Shown one piece after another: positions 15,416-63,369 of a DNA stretch of 64,000 nt. The first letter of the stretch is position 1. The number at the start of each line of letters is the position of its first letter. Below the pieces are notes generated by a model. It made no database searches. It was not told the origin of the DNA and saw only the letters and a list, made by a program, of their open reading frames with translations. The position numbers and the translations under genes are program-made. The stretch is from positions 204,870,978-204,934,977 of the forward strand of contig CP136066.1 of assembly GCA_032622095.1 (NCBI GenBank), read 5' to 3'. This stretch comes from Siphonodentalium dalli (taxonomy: Eukaryota; Mollusca; Scaphopoda; Gadilida; Siphonodentaliidae).

Positions 15416-15547
15416 AGAGCTACTGGAACATATCATATAAATGTTCTTGTTTTCAGGCCACTTGGTAAGATCAGAATCTTCAAATGTGTTCTCAGTACAA
15501 CTAACTCTCTTCAAGAAACTGGAAATGTATCGCTACATGACACAAGT

Positions 15548-16552
15548 ATGTTTTTATCCTGAATCCATGGATTATAGGGAACCAATGCACTCGCAGTGGG
15601 TAAATGTGGTTTTTATCCTGAATCCATGGATTATAGGGAACCAATGCACTCGCAGTGGGTAAATGTGGTTTTTATCCTGAATCTGTGGATTATAGGGATC
15701 CAAGGCACGCGCAGTGGGTAAATGTGGTTTTTATCCTGAATCTGTGGATTATAGGGATCCAAGGCACTCACAGTGGGTAAATGTGGTTTTTATCCTGAAT
15801 CCATGGATTATAGGGAACCAATGCACTCGCAGTGGGTAAATGTGGTTTTGATCCTGAATCTGTGGATTATAGGGATCCAAGGCACTCGCAGTGGGTAAAT
15901 GTGGTTATTATCCTGAATCCATGGATTATAGGGAACCAAGGCACTCGCAGTGGGTAAATGTGGTTTTTATCCTGAATCTGTGGATTATAGGGATCCAAGG
16001 CACTCGCAGTGGGTAAATGTGGTTATTATCCTGAATCTGTGGATTATAGGGATCCAAGGCACTCGCAGTGGGTAAATGTGGTTTTTATCCTGAATCCATG
16101 GATTATAGGGATCCAATGCACGCGCAGTGGGTAAATGTGGTTATTATCCTGAATCTGTGGAATATAGGGATCCAATGCACGCGCAGTGGGTAAATGTGGT
16201 TTTTATCCTGAATATGTGGATTATAGGGATCCAAGGCACTCGCAGTGGGTAAATGTGGTTTTTATCCTGAATCCATGGATTATAGGGAACCAATGCACTC
16301 GCAGTGGGTAAATGTGGTTATTATCCTGAATCTGTGGATTATAGGGATCCAATACACGCGCAGTGGGTAAATGTGGTTATTATCCTGAATCTGGATTATA
16401 GGGATCCAAGGAACTCGCAGTGGGTAAATGTGGTTATTATCCTGAATCTGGATTATAGGGAACCAAGGCACTCGCAGTGGGTAAATGTGGTTTTTATCCT
16501 GAATCTGTGGATTATAGGGAACCAAGGCACTCGCAGTGGGTAAATGTGAAAA
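15548..16552. repeat. 59-bp minisatellite, about 17 copies
   Basis: Unit contains gtaaatgtggtttttatcct, gaatccatggattatagg and gaaccaatgcactcgcagtgg. Period 59, with two units shortened to 57 (16380-16480). Two main variants (ccatgg...aacc and ctgtgg...atcc) alternate. Frames on both strands here are products of the repeat. Confidence 0.93.
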
Positions 16553-43680: not shown

Positions 43681-44331
43681 CAAAATCGCTGACGAGAATA
43701 GAGTTAAGTTGGTATACTTTGAATCAAATCCAAACTGTGATGAAAATGATTTGATTTGGAAGACTGAATCTTTCAATCGTTAATTAAAATTTAATTCGAT
43801 GAATCACAGGCTCTAGTTTCAACTCCTCAATGCTTTGGAATGTCCATTGTCGCATGTTATTAATACAAACATTATTACCACTTTAAAAACAAAAAGACTT
43901 TTTAAAAAAGGACACTAATTTTAACAATATCTGTGTATATTTATAGTTTAATTTCATAGGAGGTTAAATGCATCAAACATTTTGTTTTTGTCTCCACCTT
44001 TTAGATACATTGATTTCGATTAATGCTGGCTTAGAAGAAGTGCAGACCATGCTTGTACCAGCATGCACATAAAAAATAATACCTGTTTGGAGGGAGTTGA
44101 TCACTCACATATTCTCAAAAACACTCAAAGCTTCATATTAATGTAGAATTTGAAGTTTAGAGACATATTATAACATGCTCCGCATAGCGATGTGACACTG
44201 AGTTATAAATGTTAGAACTTTCTTCAAATTGCCGCTGGTTGAGCCTAACATTTGATTAACAGTAATTAGAATTCAAGAGCTAGAGTGCATATAATTGTTT
44301 CCAAAGTTGTTAGTCATGATTTTTCTTTCAG

Positions 44332-44583
44332 ACTAATAACAACTCACACCAAAATGCTGACATATCAGACAAAAGTCGCCGACGGAAATCTCCATCGAAC
44401 CTCATCTATGTTGTTGTTGTCATACTCTGCTTGGGGGTGGTTCTCACAACTCTCAATATTTATCAAATGCATCAACTCAAAGAAGAACACCAGTACCACA
44501 GAGAGGGTCCACCATCTGTTATCGAGGGGCATGTTGGTAGATATGTTGCCAAGCAACCTATACTTTGGATGTCGGCTAAACAT
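44332..44583 (+). CDS. TTLL-like exon 1 of those recognised: basic patch plus membrane anchor
   Basis: The exon follows the polypyrimidine acceptor ttttctttcag and ends at CAT|gtgagt; both borders are phase 0. It encodes a polar N-terminal stretch, the basic cluster SRRRK (residues 15-19), then LIYVVVVILCLGVVLTTLNIY (24-44), a clear hydrophobic helix, and a Glu/His-rich linker before GHVGRYVAKQPILWMSAKH, the start of the family domain. The in-frame stop just upstream (44317-44319) and the lack of an early Met show that this is an internal exon, with the initiator in an unidentified upstream exon. The best Met-initiated frame over this spot (44285-44587) is out of phase and is not the protein. 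Confidence 0.82.
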
Positions 44584-47500: not shown

Positions 47501-50500
47501 GGTGAATTTAGTGATGCTATCCCGCAAGATGGGCTAGCATCACCAAATTCACCCTCTGGGAACCTCATTCTGCTTAGGCCCCAACTGCTGTGGGAGACCT
47601 AGGATCAGATTGAAATTCCCCAGTTGAAGTTGGTGATGTTCACCCATTACGGCATTAGTCACCTCGGTTGTGCATTTTATCTTCTGCAAATTAGGGTACA
47701 TAGAAAAAGGATAAAGAAAAAGTAACTAAAAACAATGTTAATTTTAGACTATATATACTTCCCAGAAGATGAGGCCTAAGCAGAATGAGGTCCCCAGAGG
47801 ATAAATTTGGTGAGACTAGCCTGCTGTATGGGGTAGCATCATTCACCCTCTGGGGACCTCATTCTGCAAATGACAGGCACACTATTTCCAGGCTTGTCAA
47901 AGGGGAGATTTGGGCTGGGGAAAGCACCCTAAAAGGCACCCGCTGCCCCTCATGTGGAAACCCTGTGTACACATGTACATGTATCTACAATGATAATATT
48001 TCAATAATTCTTTTAACACTTTCGTCTGCCTGCTGAATATTGTACACGTAGGTCAATAAAATAAATTTCTCTCCTTTTCAGAAAGAAAGTGGTTATCTGA
48101 AGCATGTGTATAATATATTTGAGAGAATCGGCTATGATACAAAAGGAGGATCAAATTCTGGATGGGATGTACTCTGGGCACATGACTATCCATTTGTCAC
48201 TTTAGCGAAACAAATTTCTAATCTTAAACCACATCAGAAGGTCAGTTCAAGTTTTATCTCCATCACCAATTTCATACTTCTCTCTATCACCAATTTCATA
48301 CTTCTCTCTATCACCAATTTCATACTTCCTTCAGGCCATAAAAATAAGATGATAAGATGATTTTCTGATTTTTTTTGTTGGAAAATTGGGGCTTGGGGTA
48401 GAATTTTATTTTTGGTCCAATAACTCGTCCTATAGTTTGGCGAGGTCGGTTTTGCGGATGGGCGTCCACAGATGGTGATAGCATGATAACTCTCTTTTTT
48501 TTATATTCAGTATACAAGACTTGCTAAAAAATGTCATGGCGGAATTATGGCCCTTATTTAGTTTATTTCCGTGAATTTTGTTCGGAATTGCGATATCTTG
48601 AAGAAATATCAACTCCAGTAGAGCTTTAGTCATCACTCCATTGTCTGTCGTACCATCCGTCCGTGCGTCAACAATTCTTTGAACATCTTCTCCAGATCCA
48701 TAGGACAATTAATTGAACATCTCCAGATACATAGGACTGAATGGGTTCATATTTGGTGTGAATGTTGTTCCCTAGGTACCTGGCATTCAGATTTGTTCAA
48801 ATGGGGTTACTGGGTCAAATAGGGGCAGAGTCAGGGACATAGCGCATTTCCTCCATAGTAATTCTTAAAACATCTTCTTATCAAGTACCATCAGGGTTAT
48901 TTATTTTATATTTGGTATGGAGGGTCCTTGGGTGACTGGGATTTAGATGTCAAATAGGTCCAAAAAAACAAAAAGTTAAATATATATATTTTTAATTTAA
49001 TTTTGGAATATTTATTTTTTTGCAGACCCCATGTGATATTGTTTGCATATTTTGTTGCAGGTAAACCATTTCCCTGGCAGTGGTTATATAACCAACAAAG
49101 CTAGTCTGGCTGTATCAACATTCAACTTTGTACCTCAAGCATTCAAGCTCCCAGATGAAAAGGACAAACTTATACAACATGTAAGTTTACAATATTATCT
49201 GTAGACCTATTGGTTCTGGCTAAAAGCGTTAAAATGATTTTTAAGGATAATTTAGTTAAAGGGGGACTGTACAATAAATCTGGCCATTTATGGGACCATC
49301 TCCTATTATACTCAACAGAATATGTGCAACAAATGAATGAATTTGAGCCATGAAAGAGTGCAAAATATGCTCATGTGCTACTAATCCGTCACTCAAATTC
49401 ATTCATTTGTTTCATATATTCTGTAGAGTATAATAGGAGATGGTCCCATAAATGGTCGGATTTAGTGTACAGTCCCCCTTTAACCCTTTCTTTTCAAATG
49501 TTCTCATAATAAGTTCAACAACGACCATATGTGACCCGCCATATCAAATCCAGTAGTAAGTCGGGATTTTTTTTACCCTATGCCAATGCATTCTCTTATA
49601 TATGCGAGTCGACCATAGGTCGCCTCGCATATATAAGAGAATGCATTGGCCTAACAATTTTAATAATTTTTTCTTGTATTCTTTAACAATTTTATAATTT
49701 CACCCATACAGAGCCCCAGACAAACATGAGCAGACAACACTCTTCTATATGCTTCTATATATGTGTGGGGCTCCCTGCAGGGTAATGGATGTTTTTTATT
49801 TTATGTCCTAAAAATTGTCAGAAACATTTATTTTAAAAAAATGATAAAAAACTGTTAGGCCAATGCATTCTCTTATATATGCGAGGCGACCTATGGTCGA
49901 CTCGCATATATAAGAGAATGCATTGGCACAGGTTAAAAAAAATCCCGACTTACGACTGGATTTGATATGGCGGGTCACATATTATAAACTCATTGACGAG
50001 TAGTTCCTTAGTTCTTTGTTGAACTTATTGTATGAACATTTCCCTCCAATGAAATTCACTCATTCTGCACATTTATATTATCTTTTTGCCTGTCTGTCAT
50101 CTGCTCATTTTTCTTGAACACCCCTCCAAATGAATAATAGACCATTCCAATATATACTTTATAACCGTGCGGTAGGATCCAATTAGTTAAGAATGGGTTA
50201 AAGTTCACTTGCGGACCATTTTCAGAATATCTGCTGAGAACTGGATATATTAGAATTGACTTTTCTTAAAATATTTAATTGAATTTGACTCTGCCGACTG
50301 TGGTGATCATCAATATTTTTGTCTCGTGTTTTATTTGCTGAAAAACGGGGTGTATTATGTTATAGTCTGAACATTTCCTTCGATTCATCCATCAGTCCAT
50401 CCATCCAATCGCTTTTGGTTTCCGGATGATGACTTTAGATAGTGTTACCATAACTGAATGGAATTAAATTTATTATGTGGGTTTCTAGCACAAAATACAG

Positions 50501-53500
50501 GTCAAGTTCGAATTCGGGTTCCACCTGCCAATTTTCACCAGAGTTATGGCTCTTTTTGTTGGAATTTTCGTTTTTGGATGATAAACTTAGGTAAGTCTGA
50601 ACTGAATGGAATGAAATCTATTATGTGACTTACTAGCCAAAAAATTCAAATTTGTCACTTCCCTCCAATTTCACCAGAGTTAAGGCTCTTTGTTGGAATT
50701 ACCACAGGCATATTTTGCAATGCCCTTTCGATGCTCTTGTTTAAATTAATAAAACATTACATGTTTCATTATGGAATCTATTTTAAGATTAAGGAACATC
50801 CAGAAAAGATGTGGGTTCAGAAGAGTAATAAGCATAGAGGCATACACATCAAAACTATAGATAGTAAGTACTGTAAAACCTGTCTAAACTGACATACACA
50901 TCAAAACTATAGATAGTAAGTACTGTAAAACCTGTCAAAGTAATAAGCATAGAGGCATACGCATCAAAACTATAGATAGTAAGTACTGTAAAACCTGTCA
51001 AAGTAATAAGCATAGAGGCATACGCATCAAAACTATAGATAGTAAGTACTGTAAAACCTGTCAAAGTAATAAGCATAGAGGCATACGCATCAAAACTATA
51101 GATAGTAAGTACTGTAAAACCTGTCAAAGTAATAAGCATAGGGGCATACGCATCAAAACTATAGATAGTAAGTACTGTAAAACCTGTCTAAACTGACATA
51201 CACATCAAAACTATAGATAGTAAGTACTGTAGAACCTGTCTGAGTAATAAGCACAGAGGCATACGCATCAAAACTATAGATAGTAAGTAATGTAAAACCT
51301 GTCAAAGTAATAAGCATAGAGGCATACGCATCAAAACTATCGATAGTAAGTACTGTAAAACTAGGGTTCTGCGAATTGGAAATTTTGATCGAATCGAATA
51401 TCGAATCGAATGCTAGAAATCAAATCGAATATCGATTCGAATCATATCTGTATGTTGTATTCTCAATTGGGCATGTTTTGTCAACGATTAGACGATTTGT
51501 GAAACGTTCCATGAACTACATGCACGAAGTTAAATCATAACGTATGTGGCGATGAACCGTCATTTGCAATACTATTAACTTCAATTAATAATTGATTAAA
51601 ACGTCCAATCGGCCGTCACGACGATTAATATATAACCACTAAACGGATTATTGGAACTAAAATCACGCAAAATTTGTACAGATTGCATATGCATGCAAAA
51701 TTGCAAATCAACATTCGGAATCACCCGTTTTTATAAACTTGAAGATGCAACAACAGTCGCAGTGTAGCCTGTTTATGTAGTGCTGGATGCTTCTTGGACA
51801 GATGATTCCATAGGTGGGTCGTTGTCCCAGATGCTTGCGATTTATACACCATGTTGCATTCATCATATGTGTAAGCCTGCAGCTTTATCATGTTTAAAAT
51901 AAACATGAATAACGGATGACGTTTTGTCAAGTGTCAAAAACGCTCCGAAATTGAAAGTAAACTTCAAAAGAAAACACCGCGAAAATGCAGTTTTCGATGC
52001 CGGGAACACGTGTTGTTTAAATTCTGAGCTATATTACATAACGCGGAATCTGAGACGGATAGACCGCGGATAACGCTAGCGGTTGATCAGTCTCATAGCT
52101 ATTATAATTTACGTGCGTTGTCGGTCCATCGACGATCTCCGAGCTTTTGGCTACCATGTTCAAAGATAGAAATCAGACGTATTTAGTTGTCATATAGTGG
52201 CTAATTGCTGTCTATACTTATATTTAATATATATAATCGCGATGTACAATGATAATTATAAGAAACATATATACATCATTTTCTGTAATTAAATGGCACA
52301 AAACAGCTAAGATCGACGTGTGTACCTGCCCGTAAACAGCCTACTTTTCCATCATTGTATATTCGAAATTTCGAGTTGGCAATTTCGAATCGAATTCGAA
52401 TCGAATTTGACTTTCGAATCGAATATCGAATATTCGCAGGACCCTATGTAAAACCTGTCATGAGTAATAAGCATAGAGGCATACACATCAAAACTATAGA
52501 TAGTAAGTACTGTAGAACATGTCTAAACTGACATACACATCAAAACTATAGATAGTAAGTACTGTAAAACCTGTCAAAGTAATAAGCATAGAGGCATACA
52601 CATCAAAACTATAGATAGTAAGTACTGTAAAACCTGTCGTGAGTAATAAGCATAGAGACATACACATCAAAACTATAGATAGTAAGTACTGTAAAACCTG
52701 TCGTGAGTAATAAGCATAGAGACATACACATCAAAACTATAGATAGTAAGTACTGTAAAACCTGTCTGAGTAATAAGCATAGAGGCATACGCATCAAAAC
52801 TATAGATAGTAAGTACTGTAAAACCTGTCTGAGTAATAAACATAGAGGCATACACATCAAAACTATAGATAGTAAGTACTGTAAAACCTGTCTAAACTGA
52901 CAACTAAATTTTATGCTAGAGTTGACAGTGGTTAGCATAATTTTTTGGTAATTAATCGATTCTGATAACTAATGGGTCTTTTGAAGAAATGTTGTTGTTG
53001 CATTCTGATGATATGGGGACCATCGAATTGGATTGTGTACCTTTAACGCCTTTTCTATTGATATCAAGTCGTACAAACAGTGATTGTTGAAATATAAGAC
53101 TCAATGTTGCAAAAATTATTTTCATTTTTCAAAATGGTGATGTTCACCCATTAATCACTTCAATTATGCATTTTATCTTCTGCATATTAAGGTATATAGA
53201 ACTGAACAGAATGTAAACAGTAACTAAAAACTACTTTAATTTGAGACGAGATACTTCCCAGAAGATTAGGCCTAAGCAGAATGAGGTCACCAGAGGATGA
53301 ATTTAGTAATGCTAGCCCACTTTGCTGGGTAGTATCACTAAATTCACCCTCTGGGGACCTCATTCTGCAAATGACAGACACACTATTTCAAAGCTCAATT
53401 TGGTGTGATCTACATGCATATCATTACTTTGTCTACTGTCTACTCTGTAACCAAACTCTTCTATTATTAATGTTTCATTGCAGCCCTGGACCTAACCAGT

Positions 53501-56500
53501 TCTATTATTAATGTTTCATTGCAGCCCTGGACCTAACCAGTTCTATTATTAATGTTTCATTGCAGCCCTGGACCTAACCAGTTCTATTATTAATGTTTCA
53601 TTGCAGCCCTGGACCTAACCAGTTCTATTATTAATGTTTCATTGCAGCCCTGGACCTAACCAGTTCTATTATTAATGTTTCATTTGCAGCCCTGGACCTA
53701 ACCAGTTCTATTATTAATGTTTCATTTGCAGCCCTGGACCTAACCAGTTCTATTATTAATGTTTCATTTGCAGCCCTGGACCTAACCAGTTCTATTATTA
53801 ATGTTTCATTGCAGCCCTGGACCTAACCAGTTCTATTATTAATGTTTCATTTGCAGCCCTGGACCTAACCAGTTCTATTATTAATGTTTCATTTGCAGCC
53901 CTGGACCTAACCAGTTCTATTATTAATGTTTCATTGCAGCCCTGGACCTAACCAGTTCTATTATTAATGTTTCATTGCAGCCCTGGACCTAACCAGTTCT
54001 ATTATTAATGTTTCATTGCAGCCCTGGACCTAACCAGTTCTATTATTAATGTTTCATTGCAGCCCTGGACCAAACCAGTTCTATTATTAATGTTTCATTG
54101 CAGCCCTGGACCTAACCAGTTCTATTATTAATGTTTCATTGCAGCCCTGGACCTAACCAGTTCTATTATTAATGTTTCATTGCAGCCCTGGACCTAACCA
54201 GTTCTATTAATGTTTCATTGCAGCCCTGGACCTAACCAGTTCAACTACATTTGTTCAGGAGTATGTCGCCAAGCCATTTCTTATTGATGATAGGTATGAG
54301 CAACTTTTATTTATGCCATAATTATACCCCCATATTTTATCAAAGAAAAATAGGGGATATAATGGAGTGACTGTGTCCGTCTGTCTGTCCATCCATCCGG
54401 GCATATATCTCATCCATGGGTTAACTGATTTTTGTTGATATTCGGTATATGAGACTTGCTTAACAATGTCTTGATCGAGTTCGAAAACCGGCCAGGCCAT
54501 TAATTTGTTCATTTTTGTGAAATTTGATCATGATAGCATGATAACTTGAAAAAATTTCAACTGATTTTTAGCTCAACTTACCTTGTAAGTTTGAGCTATT
54601 GCCATGATTTGGCGTCCGTCGTCCGTGTGTGTGTGTGTCCGTCAACAATTTCCTTTGGCGCGGGCTACAGGTCGTACCTTTGTTCTGATCTTTATGAAAT
54701 TTGTCATGAATATTGACATGTACATGGGAACGAGTCATTTTGGTGTCATTCGGCCAAAAAACATGGCTGCTGGCAGCCATCTTGGATTTCAAAATTCAAT
54801 CCATTGGCGCGGGCTATAGGTCGTACTATTCGTCTGATCATCATGAAATTTGTCATGGATGTTAATATTGACATGTAGATGGGAACGAGTGATTTTGGGG
54901 TCGTTCGGCCAAAAAACATGGCCGCCAGCAGCCATCTTGGATTTTACTCTTTGCATGACTAAATCCTTTGGCGCGGGCTACAGGTTGTAGCTTTGGTCGG
55001 AACTTCATGAAATTTTCATGGATGTTAACAATGACATGTAGATGGGAACGAGTCATTTTGGTGTCGTTCGGCCGAAAAACATGGCCGTCAGCAGCCATCT
55101 TGGATTTTACTCTTTACATGACTAAATCCTTTGGCGCGGGCTACAGGTCGTACCTTTTGTCTGATGTTTATGAAATTTGTCATGAACGTTGCCATTGACA
55201 TGTAGATGGGAACGAGTCATTTTGGGGTCATTCGGCAACAAAAGCATGGCTGCTGGCAGCCATCTTGGATTTCAAAATTCAATCCATTGGCGCGGGCTAC
55301 AGGTCGTACTATTCGTCTTATCATCATGAAATTTGTCATGGATGTTAATATTGACATGTAGATGGGAATGTGTCATTTTGGGGTCGTTAGCAGCCCTCTT
55401 GGATTTTACTCTTTGCATGACTAAATCCTTTGTCGTTGGCTACAGGTCATAGCTTTGGTCAGATCTTCATGAAATTTGTCATGGATGTTAACAATGACAT
55501 GTAGATGGGAACGAGTCCTTTGGGGTCAATTGGCCAAAAAACATGACCGCCAGCAGCCATCTTGGATTTTACTCTTTGCATGACTAAATCCTTTGGCACA
55601 GGTCAGACATTGCAATTAGCACCTTTCCTTTCCTATATACTGTCAACCATTAAATTATTCCCCTACCTATCAATTTGTGTAGGAATAATTAACACTGTCC
55701 ATCCACCAATAGACATGTTCTATCCGATGCGAAAACTCAAGTATTTTTTTTTCGCTCATGTTCATATTTTATTTGCAGGTTTATGATGACCCTCCCCTCA
55801 CCTGTATAGTTCTTGGTATCGATCGGTTAATTGGTTTAGAAAAAAATTAACTCTTCACAAACATGCTATCCGATGCATTAAGTCAAATACTTTTCTTCTG
55901 ATCTGCCTCATATTTCTTACCTAGATTTTTCTGATCACACTCTTCATCTGTATGGATTTGATATTGATTAATTAACCCTTTTCACTCTTGAACCAGGTTT
56001 ATTAATGCACACTCTATAATACTAATATTTAATTAGTTTTATACCATTAATAGATGTAATGTCCTGTTTTGAAATTAGGAAGATTCCATCAATAACTCAA
56101 ATATCTTTCCTGCATGGTTAACATTAAAGAATGAAATATGAAGCCACTCAAACATTTCCTTTGTACTTCCTTTCTAGTCATATGACTTTTAATTATTATC
56201 ATACACCCCTTCTCTGCCCAGTCTCTCTGCTTGTGGAAGAAATGATATAAATTGCACAACTATATTTGAATTTAATTACATTCTTAGACATCTCCTAAGC
56301 AAGCAGTATTTGTTTATCAGAGTGAGTGATAGACTTAAGTGTGTGAAAATTTATTTTGATCTTTGCATGACTAAATCCTGATACAGGCCACATCCCTCAT
56401 CCGATTGTCGACAAACTCTAGATGGGAGCTGTCTATTTTTGTGTCTATTGTTTCACAAAATCAGGCAACCATGCGCTCTATGGTCAGCAACAATCATGAC

Positions 56501-59500
56501 TTAAAATTTGTACAAGAATCAGAATTGATTCTCGCAAATGACACCCTCAAAGTGAAACATGAGAATCAAGTTTGAATCTCGCATACATTTATCTCTGCTT
56601 TGTTGTATAAAGACATCATATGATAGCTATTAGGCCAAGGTGTTTTTTTTTCAATTGGCCAACAATAAATCTTTCAAAATTGAAAGCTATACATGTACAA
56701 TAAATATTGCAATTCTGAATTTCTGTCACATTCACATCAACTCATTTGACTGAAGATACAGGGAGAGGGCAAACTTTTTTTATGATTTGAAAGTAAGATA
56801 ATACTGTTTAGAAATTGTCTCAGTGCACTGTGCATTGAATTTTCAAAACTTTCCCAGGGATGCCCTTCAAACCGTCTCTAACTTGAAAGGAGTGATACAA
56901 CATACCCCCCCCCCCCCCCTCTCTCAACCAACTTGTGGCATAATCAGGATTTGAATTTGATTCTTATACCCTCAAACTTGTGAATCAGCTCTGATTCTCG
57001 CAAATAATGGATGGATTTTAATGCCTGAACAACCATGACTGTTTTGTCACCATCTAAATACTATAATTGTCTTTGTTTCAGGAAATTTGACATTGGTGTT
57101 TATGCCATATTGACTTCAATAGATCCACTGAGAGCTTACATAATCGAAGGTGACTTTCTTATTCGGTGAGTTTTATTTCGACAAATCCAGACAAATCTCA
57201 AATTTATTATTATTCTATGACAGAGTTCCTGAAAATGTTTGCAAAGTGTAAATATGTGGTGAAAAGCATTAAATTATAGTGTTGAAATGATTTTTCGACA
57301 AGTCGATGTCGACACGATTAGTGCTTGTAGTCGATTAAAAATTACTGGTTGATTATTCGGATTGCGTTGGAGACATGTGCCTTTTCTCAGTTATGTAAAA
57401 TTGTTACATGGTAGACTATACAAGATGCGAGGTAATGTCAAGGAAAGTATTAAACTATAGATAGTTTGTCTCCAAAATCTGTCTCATCATTTCTTTGATG
57501 ATTTACCTCGTGCTTGTGAACATCACAAAGAATTGCAACATTGTAGCACCAATGCCTTTGATCGCAGAACAACAAACGAAAATAGTTGTTTGATGTACTG
57601 ACCCGGTTCAAAGCCCATGCCTGTGTTTAAGCCCACCCATATATTTTGGCCAAATTCCTTGCACAGGGGTATATTCGTGTTTAAGCCCACCCCAAATTTT
57701 GTTCAATTTCAGCGGTGGTAAGTAAGTATTTGCTAATAATACTTCCCAAATAAATAATTCCAATATAACGGGAAGTACCAATATAACGGGAAGTATATTC
57801 ACAAACGATTGGTGACGGCGAGAATGCCACGAAAAATGGAAAGTTATACTTCGTAGGTATTAGTGATAATAAATAAAATAAAATAAAGTGAATCTTAAAA
57901 TCTCATTTGTTTATTCAATTATACTTCCTGGGGGAAACCAATCGTCAACAGACATCAAATACAAAAGAATGCACTCGCTAACGGCGTATATCTGAGAACG
58001 CGGTAAACATCAGTCACTTCAAAGAGTCACGTGCGTCCATCGCACACATGTCAACAACAGTACTCTAAAAACATATTCTTTGTATGTCGGTATGTTCCTA
58101 CATGTGGCCAAACACAAAAAGAACTCATTCCCTGGTTTTGTAAACACACGGTGGGTATAATAATGGGGCAGAAGGGGGACTTGTCATCCACAACACCCCA
58201 ACAGCACAAGATGCCTTCAAAAAAAGAGATACCGATGTCGTATTGGTACCCGGTAAATAATCATTATTTAAAAAATTTAAACTTCTATTTTTCACGTTTT
58301 ACGATATAGACTATAGTATAAACATTAATCTGTGTCAACGGTTTGGAAGCGATAGGCTAACTCTAAACATTCAAACACGTGTTTTTTTGTATACGTATTT
58401 ACATCGTAATTTTGTTAATTAACTAGACTCACTGGAGCCGTCACTATTGTATTGTAACTCTTTGTAGACAACGTGCCATGAATAGAGCACTGGGTTCATT
58501 GTTATCGGATTAAGTCACTCTCTTATATGTTGCATAATATTTCCCTGTACAATTTTCAGACATTTTTTAATTATTATCTTTGGCTTCGATGACGACAGCA
58601 AAGTTGTGTTGTTGTGGGGATCACGTACATCTGAAGATTGATATAAACTATAGATATAGACTATAGATAGTGGATTTATCCAGCTGTCTGAAATGGCAGA
58701 AATTTGATGACCCATGATGCTTACAAACTGTCATTTATGGGAATTTTGGGCAATAAAACAAGACAAGAAGTAATATTTTAATATACACATCAAAATGAAA
58801 AAAATAGTTTCTCAAAGTAACTTATACTTAACTTTATTTAATCTGGAAGCCGTGTATATTTCCCTGAAACTCTGTGTTGGATCGACTTTATTTTATGGAT
58901 CCATTTCTTCAGTTTTACTGTCCCGATTTCTTGGGATTTTTGGTTTGCAAAGGGTCATATTCGAGTTTAAGCCCACTTGGATTTTTGAGCTCAAATAAAA
59001 CAAAGGCCCCCTGGGCCTAAACGCGGGTCAGTATGGTAATAGATGTTAAATCTGTTCACTTTTAATAATTCCTAATGTTACTGTGAACCAACACCACATC
59101 AACTGTAGATCTGTTCAACAATCAACATAGTAATGACAGTGCGCAGGCCTGTAGGTGGCGTACCTTTAAACACCACTCTATTAATACCGTACTGACCCGC
59201 ATAGGCCCAGGGGGCCTTTGTTTTATTTGAGCTCAAAAATCCAAGTGGGCTTAAACTCGGATATGGCCCTTTGCAAAAATGCAAACCAAAAATCCTAAAA
59301 ATCGGGACAGTAAAACTAATGAAAGCCGATCTGACGCCGATTATTTGGGAATTTTTTAAATGTGAATATTAAAATATTATAATAACACTTTAAGTCTTGT
59401 AGTTTTATTGGACAACATTCCCATGTTAAAATGACACTATTATGTAAGTACATGTAGTCTTGACTGACAGCCGTCTTGTTCCCAAAGTGTATGCTTGGAG

Positions 59501-62630: not shown

Positions 62631-63369
62631 TTGGGCGATTAGTCGACGAATGTAAATAACCGTCGACTACCACACCTGTCGAAGGTTAGTCGATTAATCA
62701 AATAATCGTGGTAAGCCTATAATAAACTAAGATGTGATATATTACATAGTATTTTGACAGCTACGAGCAGATGCTATACTATTTTTCAAACAAGCTGATA
62801 CCTCATTTATGTCCAAATTAACATTTGTTTGCTCTAACATTCTGACCAAAGTTGTCAGTCGAAAGATTTTCCAAGATGTATGGACTGGTGTATTCCACGC
62901 ACCTCCGACTGGCAACTTTGTTCACAATGTTATAGAAAACCACTAAGTATTTCCGAACAAATAAGGTATCAACTGGTTTCAAAAATAAACCAGCATATGC
63001 TTGTAACAGTCAAACTGCTATGTTTTGTGTGAGTTCCTCATATATTCTTTTTTTGTGCGTTTGCACATTTTGAATTCGTGGTACTCACCAACCTCAAAAC
63101 CACGTGATTCCCCTCCAGTCAATAGGTCTCCTTATGTACTTTTATTATGTTGTCGGCTATTATTTTCTGAATTCCCCCAAGATGAATAAAAGACCATTCC
63201 AATATATACTTTGTAACTGAATTAGGAGAAACCATTTAGTATAGAACGGGTTAATCACTATAATTAGTTGCTTGTTTTTTCCAGGTTTTGTCCAAACAAA
63301 TATCACCCATTTGATCCCAGTGATCTCAATAAATATGTGGTTGGTGATGATTATATGCCAGTATGGGAG
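44332..63369 (+). CDS. Membrane-anchored tubulin-tyrosine-ligase-like (TTLL15-like) protein, seven exons, partial at both ends
   Basis: Seven exons (44332-44583, 48082-48240, 49061-49180, 50788-50863, 54224-54293, 57082-57165, 63285-63369) all have AG/GT borders and join in one frame to 282 codons without a stop. TTLL proteins are ATP-grasp-fold ligases that add amino acids (classically Glu, Gly or Tyr) to tubulin or other proteins. Visible family landmarks in order are a single membrane segment (residues 24-44 of the partial protein), WDVLWAHDYPF, NLKPHQKVNHFPGSGYITNK, PQAFKLPDE, MWVQKSNKHRGI (ATP-grasp core), FVQEYVAKPFLIDDRKFDIG, VYAILTSIDPLRAYI and RFCPNKYHPFDP. The membrane anchor and the HFPGSGYITNK / HRGI / KYHPFDP wording fit the invertebrate TTLL15-like group as I remember it; the subgroup is less sure than the family. 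No in-frame Met precedes the anchor, so an upstream first exon is missing, and the rest of the catalytic domain lies beyond the window. Confidence 0.9.
44642..44850. mobile_element. TTAA-flanked MITE (CCCTTTTTATACTAAATGG ends), intact
   Basis: ttaaccctttttatactaaa ... gtttagtatagaaagggttaa, between TTAA sites, in the first visible TTLL intron. Related pieces: 1644-2353, 7672-7740, 49480-50205, 61455-61520, 63150-63255. 44851-45358 holds nothing recognisable. Confidence 0.82.
45359..45428. repeat. Short perfect hairpin
   Basis: tagttctttaccagaataaatc and gatttattctggtaaagaacta flank a 13-base loop. Could be a tiny MITE. 45429-46130 shows no recognisable feature. Confidence 0.7.
46138..46552. 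mobile_element. MITE with ~35-bp imperfect inverted ends
   Basis: tttttggtaaatcacaccca, attcccaaggctggcaaac (46141-46180) is inverted at 46510-46550 (cgccagccttgggaatcggtgtgctttaccaaaaa). Duplicated target not clear. Confidence 0.68.
46827..47264. mobile_element. TTAA-flanked MITE plus adjoining partial copy
   Basis: Element at 46831-47077 between TTAA sites (gctgcgctggtgcagcatta, two inverted gcatatataagagaatgc modules, gctgcaccaatgtcatgaaaggg). 47082-47263 repeats cttagaggttaaggtaaata, ttgtttgggcaacgtattct and ends atgggttaa, a second, left-truncated copy. Confidence 0.78.
47444..47904. mobile_element. hAT-like MITE (CAAGCCTGG variant), long form
   Basis: The element at 47452-47896 has ends caagcctggaaattgggtgc and cacactatttccaggcttg. 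Flanks tcggaggg and tcaaaggg match at six of eight positions, an aged duplication. The frame at 47369-47602 is part of it. Confidence 0.8.
48082..48240 (+). CDS. TTLL-like exon 2
   Basis: Acceptor ccttttcag, donor AAG|gtcagt, phase 0 on both sides, 53 codons. It encodes KESGYLKHVYNIFERIGYDT, a Gly-Ser turn, then WDVLWAHDYPFVTL and ISNLKPHQK. The 'W-D-V-L-W-x-H-D-Y-P-F' and 'L-K-P-H-Q-K' strings are hallmarks of the N-terminal lobe of TTL-family ligases. A short 24-bp tandem repeat begins right behind the donor. Confidence 0.9.
48252..48330. repeat. 24-bp tandem repeat behind the exon-2 donor
   Basis: Three copies of tatcaccaatttcatacttc tctc, starting about 12 bases after the donor. Confidence 0.85.
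48590..48960. repeat. Interspersed 'gtccgtgcgtcaacaa' intron repeat
   Basis: tagtcatcactccattgtct, ggttcatatttggtgtgaat, cattcagatttgttcaaatgg and accatcagggttatttattt follow the family order. Confidence 0.65.
49061..49180 (+). CDS. TTLL-like exon 3
   Basis: Acceptor tttgttgcag, donor CAT|gtaagt, phase 0, 40 codons. It encodes VNHFPGSGYITNKASLAVST followed by FVPQAFKLPDEKDKLIQH. 'N-x-x-P-G-x-x-x-I/L-T-x-K' and '(I/V)P-x-A-F-x-L-P' are conserved TTL-domain strings. Confidence 0.9.
49256..49483. mobile_element. TTAA-flanked palindromic MITE (AGGGGGACTGTAC ends)
   Basis: The element at 49260-49479 lies between TTAA sites. Arms agggggactgtacaataaat ... aaatgaatgaatttgag are inverted to ctcaaattcattcatttg ... 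agtgtacagtcccccttt. It almost forms a perfect hairpin. Confidence 0.88.
49480..50205. mobile_element. TTAA-flanked MITE interrupted by a palindromic-core element
   Basis: The outer ends ttaaccctttcttttcaaat and ccaattagttaagaatgggttaa are those of the 44642-44850 family (inner parts gttcaacaacga / cttagttctttgttgaactt). Between them at about 49529-49985 lies another element, atatgtgacccgccatatca ... tgatatggcgggtcacatat, which holds the same ccaatgcattctcttatata palindrome twice. Confidence 0.78.
50380..50745. repeat. Interspersed repeat shared with 9780-9990
   Basis: Two internal copies of actgaatggaatgaaat(c)tattatg, then ccagagttaaggctctttgt and gatgctcttgtttaaa. It ends about 40 bases before exon 4. 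Confidence 0.6.
50788..50863 (+). CDS. TTLL-like exon 4 (ATP-grasp core), source of the donor-side minisatellite
   Basis: Starts after tctattttaag and ends GATA|gtaagtactg (phase 1). It encodes IKEHPEKMWVQKSNKHRGIH and IKTID; W-V-Q-K...H-R-G-I is the ATP-binding Lys / Gly-rich strand region of the ATP-grasp fold. The last ~30 bases plus the donor are repeated about 15 more times downstream. Only this first donor gives an open frame: reading on reaches an in-frame TGA at the end of the first repeat unit (near 50888), so later donors would yield a premature stop. Confidence 0.85.
51362..52446 (-). mobile_element. hAT-like element (TAGGGTTCTGCGAAT ends) inserted in the donor array
   Basis: Ends TAGGGTTCTGCGAATTGG and ATATTCGCAGGACCCTA are inverted. 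The flanks carry the identical 8-bp duplication tgtaaaac (51354-51361 and 52447-52454), which is part of the minisatellite unit. Multiple 'aatcgaat' blocks lie near both ends. An 8-bp duplication and the BED-finger remnant inside support the hAT superfamily. The same end type occurs at 36822-37650. Confidence 0.88.
51721..51930 (-). pseudogene. Remnant BED-type zinc finger of a hAT transposase
   Basis: A 69-residue minus-strand frame contains C25, then TTTHLWNHLSKKHP with H43 and H48, the arrangement of a BED finger (Cys-x2-Cys ... His-x4-His) found at the N-terminus of hAT transposases. The expected first Cys is Tyr22, so one zinc ligand is lost. No DDE domain is visible in the 1.1-kb element, so it is a non-autonomous remnant. 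Confidence 0.6.
52950..53060. repeat. Dispersed repeat, inverted relative to 63600-63690
   Basis: gttgttgttgcattctgatg, atatggggaccatcgaattgg and attgtgtacctttaacg pair with cgattcgatggtctccatat at 63636 and gtgttaaaggtactcaatcc at 63612. A MITE end is possible. Confidence 0.55.
53133..53398. mobile_element. Right two thirds of a CAAGCCTTG-family MITE (long form)
   Basis: gtgatgttcacccattaatc ... cctaagcagaatgaggtcac ... ctcattctgcaaatgacaga and ctatttcaaagctc. The left end is missing. Confidence 0.75.
53458..54223 (+). repeat. 41-bp minisatellite made of the exon-5 splice acceptor and exon start
   Basis: About 19 near-identical copies of a unit containing ctattattaatgtttcattg, cag and ccctggacctaaccagtt. 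Units are 41 bp (42 where cattgcag is catttgcag; one is a few bases shorter at 54201-54210). Every copy carries a complete pyrimidine-rich acceptor AG plus 17 coding bases. Only the last is joined to the exon. Confidence 0.93.
54224..54293 (+). CDS. TTLL-like exon 5, preceded by an array of acceptor copies
   Basis: Acceptor tttcattgcag, donor GATAG|gtatgag. With the single base carried over from exon 4 it reads TLDLTSSTTFVQEYVAKPFL then IDDR. F-V-Q-E-Y-x-x-x-P-x-L-I-D is a TTL-family string. The first 17 bases of the exon and its acceptor occur about 18 more times upstream, but only this last copy continues into the coding sequence. Starting at an earlier copy shifts frame after 41 bases and hits TAA. 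Confidence 0.85.
54305..54560. repeat. Interspersed 'attatacccccatattttat' intron repeat
   Basis: ataattatacccccatattt, gtgtccgtctgtctgtccat and tttgttgatattcggtatatg are strings of a repeat style common in bivalve introns (general knowledge). 48480-48600 carries a related piece. Confidence 0.55.
54565..55612. repeat. Diverged ~150-165-bp tandem repeat, about six copies
   Basis: ggcgcgggctacaggtcgta recurs at about 54657, 54805, 54970, 55133, 55290 and (diverged) 55437. Each is followed by atgaaatttgtcatggatgt, gacatgtagatgggaacgag, ttcggccaaaaaacatggc and cagcagccatcttggattt. The MAASSHVFWPNDTKM-type frames are repeat translations. 55613-57060 shows no feature except a C run at 56906-56920. 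Confidence 0.88.
57082..57165 (+). CDS. TTLL-like exon 6
   Basis: Acceptor ctttgtttcag, donor TTCG|gtgagt; it enters at phase 2 and leaves at phase 2. It encodes KFDIGVYAILTSIDPLRAYI and IEGDFLI. 'K-F-D-(I/L)-R/G-V-Y-x-x-x-T-S-x-x-P-L-R' is one of the most constant TTLL strings. In many TTLLs the residue after 'FDI/L' is Arg; here it is Gly, which agrees with the TTLL15-like group as I recall it. Confidence 0.9.
57596..59033 (+). mobile_element. TA-flanked element CTGACCCGG ... CGGGTCAG, copy 1
   Basis: The element at 57598-59031 has TA on both sides and starts ctgacccggttcaaagcc, then gtttaagcccacccatatat. It ends aggccccctgggcctaaacg cgggtcag. A TA duplication and short inverted ends suggest a Tc1/mariner-type non-autonomous element of 1.43 kb. 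Frames at 57608-58998 are unrecognised. Confidence 0.8.
59190..60461 (-). mobile_element. TA-flanked element CTGACCCGG ... CGGGTCAG, copy 2, opposite orientation
   Basis: The element at 59192-60459 is the reverse-orientation counterpart of copy 1 and about 165 bp shorter. The two are separated by 158 bp of other DNA (59034-59189), so the pair forms a ~2.9-kb palindrome with a true spacer. Confidence 0.8.
61455..61575. mobile_element. TTAA-MITE fragment with small inverted repeat
   Basis: taaaccctttctttactaaa, ctcattgacaggtagtacta and gggaaatgttcagataataa belong to the 44642-44850 family; ttcagataataaattatat / ttgaatttattatctgaac is an inverted pair. 60945-61454 holds nothing recognisable. 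Confidence 0.55.
61665..62728. mobile_element. Probable hAT-like remnant with 'gattaatcgac' ends
   Basis: cggttagtcgattaatcg (61719-61737) faces gaaggttagtcgattaatc (62681-62700) and cgattagtcgacg (62636). These are the subterminal motifs of the TAGTG hAT-like elements, but the outer ends (gttgccacggc / cgtggtaagcc) match poorly and no duplication was found. Includes a ~42-base C run (62587-62630). The 127-residue minus frame (62165-62548) shows no known domain. Confidence 0.45.
62788..62992. repeat. ~200-bp inverted-repeat element
   Basis: gctgatacctcatttatg / aataaggtatcaactgg, ctctaacattctgaccaaag / ctttgttcacaatgttatag and ttgtcagtcg / cgactggcaa are nested inverted pairs in the intron before exon 7. 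Confidence 0.65.
63150..63255. mobile_element. TTAA-MITE end fragment just before exon 7
   Basis: gaccattccaatatatactt, tgtaactgaattaggagaaa and tagtatagaacgggttaa belong to the 44642-44850 family. Its terminal TTAA lies about 30 bases before the exon-7 acceptor. 63370-64000 shows only the dispersed repeat near 63600-63690. Confidence 0.7.
63285..63369 (+). CDS. TTLL-like exon 7 (last one in the window)
   Basis: Acceptor cttgttttttccag, donor GAG|gtaagt, leaving at phase 0. It encodes RFCPNKYHPFDPSDLNKYVV then GDDYMPVWE, matching the family 'R-F-(C/S)-x-x-x-Y-x-P-x-x' segment that precedes the catalytic Asn/Glu residues. I found no further exon up to 64000, so the C-terminal half lies downstream. 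Confidence 0.87.

Follow-up and report, generated by a model that had tools for sequence, protein, structure and literature searches.

Minisatellite-like repeats that lie across exon–intron borders have been described in amphioxus as “mirages”, which take in coding bases, in many cases splice signals too, and are found at 5' as well as 3' borders (PMC3087553, PMC3902484). The cases named in these two papers are Adh3, the globins BflGb6 and BflGb9, PGBD5 and, as cited there, troponin C (PMC3087553, PMC3902484). From the Adh3 data and reverse transcription PCR of the globins, the authors conclude that border repeats leave regular splicing undisturbed (PMC3087553). In PGBD5, repeats overlap exons 3 and 4 at the splice sites; we read those at its 5' and 3' splice sites as belonging to two different introns, a point on which the wording leaves room (PMC3902484). 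In the human CBS gene, the 31-bp variable number tandem repeat (VNTR) c.1444_1467+7(16_21) is placed across a donor by its very name, and c.844_845ins68 is a 68-bp duplication of the intron 7/exon 8 border at which the more distal site is strongly favoured (PMC2630376). Human segmental-duplication genes carry internal tandem repeats at borders, averaging four 30-bp units, which are reported to be able to alter splicing or form new introns (PMC2812944). Here we analyse a stretch of 64,000 nucleotides, hereafter the window, from the scaphopod Siphonodentalium dalli (assembly GCA_032622095.1, contig CP136066.1, positions 204,870,978 to 204,934,977), in which intron 4 of a tubulin-tyrosine-ligase-like (TTLL-like) gene carries long arrays of this kind at both of its borders.

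A first-pass annotation of the window, made from its sequence, knew of no described intron amplified at both of its borders. This stands for the double amplification, of which none was found in the literature searched, with subscription papers largely beyond reach and absence from print unproven; it does not stand for either half taken singly, as the amphioxus mirages and human CBS were already on record. The kind of structure is already known for each border singly, and what appears to be new is the amplification of both borders of one intron together with the frequency of border arrays in a sample of the same genome.

Both borders of intron 4 are arrays of splice sites

Intron 4 opens with 16 donor copies, all carrying GTAAGT (16/16). 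Donors D1 to D9 start at 50864, 50916, 50979, 51042, 51105, 51168, 51220, 51283 and 51346, and D10 to D16 at 52503, 52555, 52618, 52682, 52746, 52809 and 52872. The intron closes with 19 acceptor copies, all of which keep CAG (CAG|CCCTGG; 19/19), the first exon base lying at positions from 53484 to 54224. The first-pass annotation had reported about 16 donor and 19 acceptor copies, in arrays that straddle the exon borders, include coding bases and carry a splice signal in each copy, and a copy-by-copy listing confirms this description. The main array rows reach Tandem Repeats Finder (TRF) scores of 664 to 1495, far above chance, and neither the donor nor the acceptor spacings leave a gap able to hide a copy without its signal.

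Successive donors lie 52, 63 or 64 bp apart, with one distance of 1157 bp across an inserted transposon. The 63-bp unit, recognized correctly at first, consists of 40 exon and 23 intron bases; the shorter spacing, initially put at 48 bp, is actually 52 bp and reflects a second duplication with other end points, covering 23 exon and 29 intron bases. Since the two unit types differ in their end points, the array records at least two duplication events. Between -3 and +6 there is no difference among the 16 donors. Differences between units amount to 8 of 368 positions in the exon part (16 copies) and 4 of 285 in the intron part (15 copies), giving no sign that the exon part of the inner copies is protected.

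The acceptor copies are spaced by 41 or 42 bp, except for the last spacing of 38 bp, in keeping with the 41-bp unit given earlier. Besides TATTAAT, each unit has a short run of pyrimidines, CAG and 16 exon bases, not 17 as first counted. Around the splice site, some copies have one more T in front of GCAG, and three bases are deleted upstream of A19. A15 carries one change in its exon part.

Among the 304 possible donor–acceptor pairs (16 x 19), a single one, D1–A19, keeps the frame open through exons 4 and 5. This is the outermost pair, as had been claimed from the reading frames. Because the motifs are near-identical among the donors and among the acceptors, position is the main distinction between sites. 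Exon definition selects, for each exon, the site nearest to its partner site, and among the copies this is D1 for exon 4 and A19 for exon 5. On the sequence, use of D1 with A19 is what exon definition would predict, and position alone can decide the choice. The notion that the spliceosome must make a special choice among about 300 combinations was overstated, given that for each of the two exons the outermost copy is already the nearest.

A transposon, which the first-pass annotation did not mention, splits the donor array in two. It sits within a donor unit, with array repeats on both sides, and is flanked on either side by identical 8-bp duplications, TGTAAAAC. From its inverted ends and these duplications we take it to be hAT-like. 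When 1,081 of its bases were searched against the genome, at least 39 other matches covered 917 bases or more, among 40 candidates scored out of 1,998.

Hand-splicing of exons 1 to 7 yields a 275-aa protein, part of a TTLL-like gene that may extend beyond the window. The protein contains the TTL domain that marks a TTLL gene (Pfam PF03133, E = 1.6e-31, 110.1 bits against a cut-off of 20.1), and its nearest solved chains are TTLL6, TTLL7 and TTLL11. AG and GT were read at both borders of exons 2 to 6, whereas for exon 1 a donor was read but the start is uncertain, and exon 7 was placed by frame only (Table 1). A 42-aa search found no second genomic copy of exons 4 and 5, matching only the TTLL-like locus, and DNA searches with pieces of the donor and acceptor arrays found neither of them elsewhere in the genome. 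A further array, 24 bp x 3 at window positions 48257-48328, starts at about intron base 17 past the exon 2 donor; it adjoins that border without spanning it.

Table 1. Coordinates of intron 4, its arrays and the surrounding exons (window positions), and of a kinesin exon elsewhere in the genome
Feature	Position	Strand	Basis or description
Donor array, left block, D1-D9 (D1 = exon 4 border)	50824..51361	+	TRF, copy listing
Non-autonomous-looking transposon, 1,085 bp, inside donor unit D9	51362..52446	.	Inverted ends TAGGGT[T/C]CTGCGAA, 8-bp duplications
Donor array, right block, D10-D16 (end approximate)	52447..52901	+	TRF, copy listing
Acceptor array, 19 copies of 41/42 bp	53459..54242	+	TRF, copy listing
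Intron 4, TTLL-like gene	50864-54223	+	Copy listing
Exon 1 (start approximate)	44320..44583	+	Reading frame, GTGAGT donor; hydrophobic stretch by eye
Exon 2	48082..48240	+	AG/GT borders, frame; spliced protein matches TTL
Exon 3	49061..49180	+	AG/GT borders, frame, TTL match
Exon 4, 76 nt (last 40 nt = exon part of 63-bp donor units)	50788..50863	+	Copy listing, TTL match
Exon 5, 70 nt (acceptor A19 to GTATGA donor)	54224..54293	+	Copy listing, TTL match
Exon 6	57082..57165	+	AG/GT borders, frame, TTL match
Exon 7 (limits approximate)	63280..63366	+	Frame FCPNKYHPFDPSDLNKYVVGDDYMPVWE only; part of 275-aa protein
Kinesin exon L156, arrays at both ends	G000:C7:209492464-209493087		69 bp x 2.5 reaching acceptor, 30 bp x 8.8 at donor

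A likely origin of the double array

We regard intron 4 as a likely double “mirage”, produced by minisatellite growth across both of its borders and tolerated through exon definition. Two independent minisatellites would have been seeded by tandem duplications, one across the exon 4/intron 4 border and the other across the intron 4/exon 5 border, and would then have grown by slippage or unequal exchange. New copies would fall inside the intron, so that each exon would always keep one full splice site. Pairing across the two short exons (76 and 70 nt) would favour D1, nearest to the exon 4 acceptor, and A19, nearest to the exon 5 donor, and the 15 inner donors and 18 inner acceptors would leave with the intron. 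Rare wrong choices would lead to stops or frameshifts, followed by decay. The single open pair, the identical donor motifs and the recurrence of border arrays at other genes favour this reading, as do the undisturbed splicing reported for amphioxus border repeats (PMC3087553) and the preference for the more distal site in the CBS 68-bp duplication (PMC2630376). The actual splicing, the neutrality of the arrays and their mode of growth are what we infer.

Intron gain by tandem duplication, in which a duplicated AG|GT supplies both intron ends (the Rogers model), was considered and rejected on reading the units: the donor units have no pyrimidine-tract acceptor, GTAAGT is missing from the acceptor units, and the intron stretches between two arrays that are separate.

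Border arrays recur elsewhere in the genome

The idea that border amplification is unique to the TTLL-like gene was rejected once other exons of the genome (2.23 Gb in 9 very long contigs) had been sampled; similar border arrays are frequent elsewhere, a fact beyond the view of the first-pass annotation. The kinesin sample consists of 112 exons from 123 hits, fetched with 240 bp on each side, 11 hits being left out as likely copies of others (C7:208.0 and 209.8 Mb, C6:54.5 Mb). The kinase and myosin sample consists of 29 exons (11 and 18) hand-chosen from 135 and 85 hits, mostly short matches and some sharing a gene. The TTL-family sample consists of 24 loci returned from the 29 matches of a whole-genome PF03133 scan, an incomplete list from which the short exons of the TTLL-like gene are absent. 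Loci of minus-strand matches are given in plus-strand orientation, as the overlaps L011/L013 and L018/L026 show. Kinase loci L029-L058 were left out, being 30 copies of near-equal score in one cluster with the whole domain in one open frame. The region that includes them, at G000:C2:149.83-150.60 Mb, holds 87 protein-kinase matches of near-equal score, mostly 281 aa long and mostly 2–3 kb apart, each matching the domain wholly or for the most part within a single open frame.

An array was counted when it contained exon bases and spanned the border of the matched exon. Donor-spanning arrays were found at 13 of 165 exons (kinesin 11/112, kinase and myosin 2/29, TTL family 0/24), and acceptor-spanning arrays at 4 of 165 (3/112, 0/29 and 1/24, respectively). 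One of the 13 donors, L132, was added by eye, and in another, L162, the second copy has lost its GT; GT is present in at least two copies in 12 of the 13 (12/165, P = 6.5e-5). Arrays include 34 bp x 7.9 at the donor MNLVDLAG|GTAACT (L072), 80 bp x 3.9 (L160) and 55 bp x 4.4 at a kinase exon (L176), with those of L154 and L028 on the acceptor side; in two of the acceptor arrays, L149 and L167, the exon bases shared number only about 5. The kinesin exon L156 has arrays at both ends (Table 1), and at least one of its inner donors would add in-frame residues. Its acceptor-side array, like those of L131 and L177, was dropped from the acceptor count, since exon bases cannot be made out clearly in what is repeated. 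L163 was dropped too, having just two copies, degenerate ones, that showed up in a 30-mer self-repeat profile only. A TTLL paralog (L016:1005-1186) carries a 40-bp x 4.6 donor array with four GT donors after exon PASARGIGIKVIHKWNQIPKRKPVIVQK; it stands outside the donor count, as it sits at a neighbouring exon instead of the matched one.

At window positions 15459-16548, a possible exon (..GKIRIFKCVLSTTNSLQETGNVSLHDT) ends at about 15545 with GTATGT, and a 59-bp x 17 array begins a few bases further on. It may be another border array; two peptides gave no Pfam match.

Donor enrichment depends on the background

Border arrays are common in this genome and are enriched at donors relative to unique arrays and to kinesin flanks, but not relative to the full set of arrays in the TTL loci. 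Unique arrays that span no matched border, 10 in the 24 TTL loci, cover 1,404 of 77,967 bases, or 1.8%, the neighbouring-exon array of L016 being excluded. Against this background, 13 of 165 donors compares with 3.0 expected, an approximately fourfold excess (Poisson P = 1.5e-5), whereas the acceptors show no excess (4/165, P = 0.35); both sides together give 17/330 against 5.9 expected (P = 1.6e-4). The donor contrast stays when the flanks of the 112 kinesin exons serve as background, where non-border arrays cover 0.4% (unique) or 0.9% (all). On the kinesin donor side, from 0 to +239, border arrays occupy 5–9% of positions and other arrays, dispersed ones included, 0–1.5%, and by TRF most array coverage past the border comes from arrays that start at it. 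The 30-mer self-repeat profile has no sharp peak at the border, its donor side lying at 6–10% from 0 to +120 and 6–8% from +130 to +210. All these comparisons are to be read with the cautions that exons of one gene are not independent, most exons come from one family, the test is post hoc and TRF thresholds matter. If the two sides were independent, introns amplified at both ends would be expected at about 0.19%, a rate at which the genome should hold one somewhere; the unusual part of intron 4 is its copy numbers.

One of these comparisons tells against the interpretation offered above. A random origin predicts that borders are no more covered than introns, and the donor excess over unique arrays departs from this, so that something may favour donors over purely random growth. 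That excess itself depends on the background: with 12 dispersed-family arrays included, the TTL-loci background rises to 6.9% and 13 of 165 is no excess (P = 0.36). Dispersed-family arrays were left out because a border array repeats the exon end of its own gene, which no dispersed element could bring in, an exclusion that is a judgement. We tentatively propose that tandem amplification here falls preferentially on splice borders, and on donors most of all (about one sampled donor in 13), intron 4 being the first intron known to us with both ends amplified. If true, this would point to a mutational process aimed at junctions or to selection for repeated signals.

The former possibility, that splice donors of this lineage are mutational hot spots for tandem duplication, for instance owing to breaks during transcription or to template switching close to exon ends, with the arrays as by-products, we consider doubtful. 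The donor enrichment over unique arrays and the contrast on the kinesin donor side speak for it, as do the units themselves, which repeat each gene's own exon end and so argue against insertion of a common sequence. Yet no mechanism is known, the excess vanishes against all arrays of the TTL loci, the self-repeat profile is without a sharp border peak, and the 165 exons come mostly from one family with exons of a gene not independent.

Selection for reiterated splice signals, in which added donors would recruit more U1 and added acceptor/branch units more U2AF and thereby help to define short exons or guard long introns from premature cleavage, seems unlikely. It would fit the roughly fourfold excess of arrays at donor borders over the unique arrays of flanking bases (13/165 against 1.8%), an enrichment that varies with the background chosen, and the retention of GT, which at 14 other donors (the 13 counted and L016) persists in 50 of the 52 copies found when up to 3 mismatches are allowed, and at intron 4 in 16 of 16. 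A weak-donor hypothesis was rejected, as donors with arrays showed no significant loss of strength relative to the rest (Mann-Whitney P = 0.15, 15 hand-picked sites); G at -1 is found in 8 of 15 arrayed donors against 57 of 74 or 17 of 27 others. Selection on GTAAGT cannot be read from variation within the array either, where divergence is so low (12 differences in 653 core positions) that conservation of the motif is uninformative.

Regulated alternative splicing, or a switch through nonsense-mediated decay in which inner sites are deliberately used to tune protein output, is very unlikely. The 303 of 304 pairs at intron 4 without an open frame could serve as off-switches, but in raw counts L156 alone among 13 other donor arrays with at least two GTs offers an inner donor that is in frame and free of stops, the remaining 12 offering none. 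An assembly artefact, to which tandem arrays are prone, is extremely improbable in view of the interspersed variants among copies, the 41/42-bp alternation, the two donor unit types, the exact target duplications of the inserted transposon and the 9 very long contigs.

Comparison with known systems

Amplified borders are a natural test of spliceosome choice among near-identical sites, here with 16 donors and 19 acceptors that yield a coding frame in the outermost combination only. Should amplification of this kind affect several per cent of a genome's splice sites, the rules of choice, the birth of alternative sites and mutation at exon ends would be measurable from one long-read RNA data set.

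Intron 4 resembles the amphioxus mirages in its border-spanning repeats, whose copies carry GT or AG signals here in 16/16 donors and 19/19 acceptors. It differs from them in that both borders of one intron are amplified, to 16 and 19 copies compared with 6 or 3 units in BflGb6, and in the high frequency of border arrays sampled in a single genome. The CBS 31-bp VNTR is comparable in copy number (16-21) and, by its name, in composition, with 24 exon and 7 intron bases, but it concerns the donor side only, and in CBS polymorphism is known. The CBS c.844_845ins68 allele likewise duplicates a border and favours the more distal site, yet it is a single 68-bp duplication and not an array. The repeats of human segmental-duplication genes are also border minisatellites, of about 30-bp units x four, and differ in their reported ability to form new introns.

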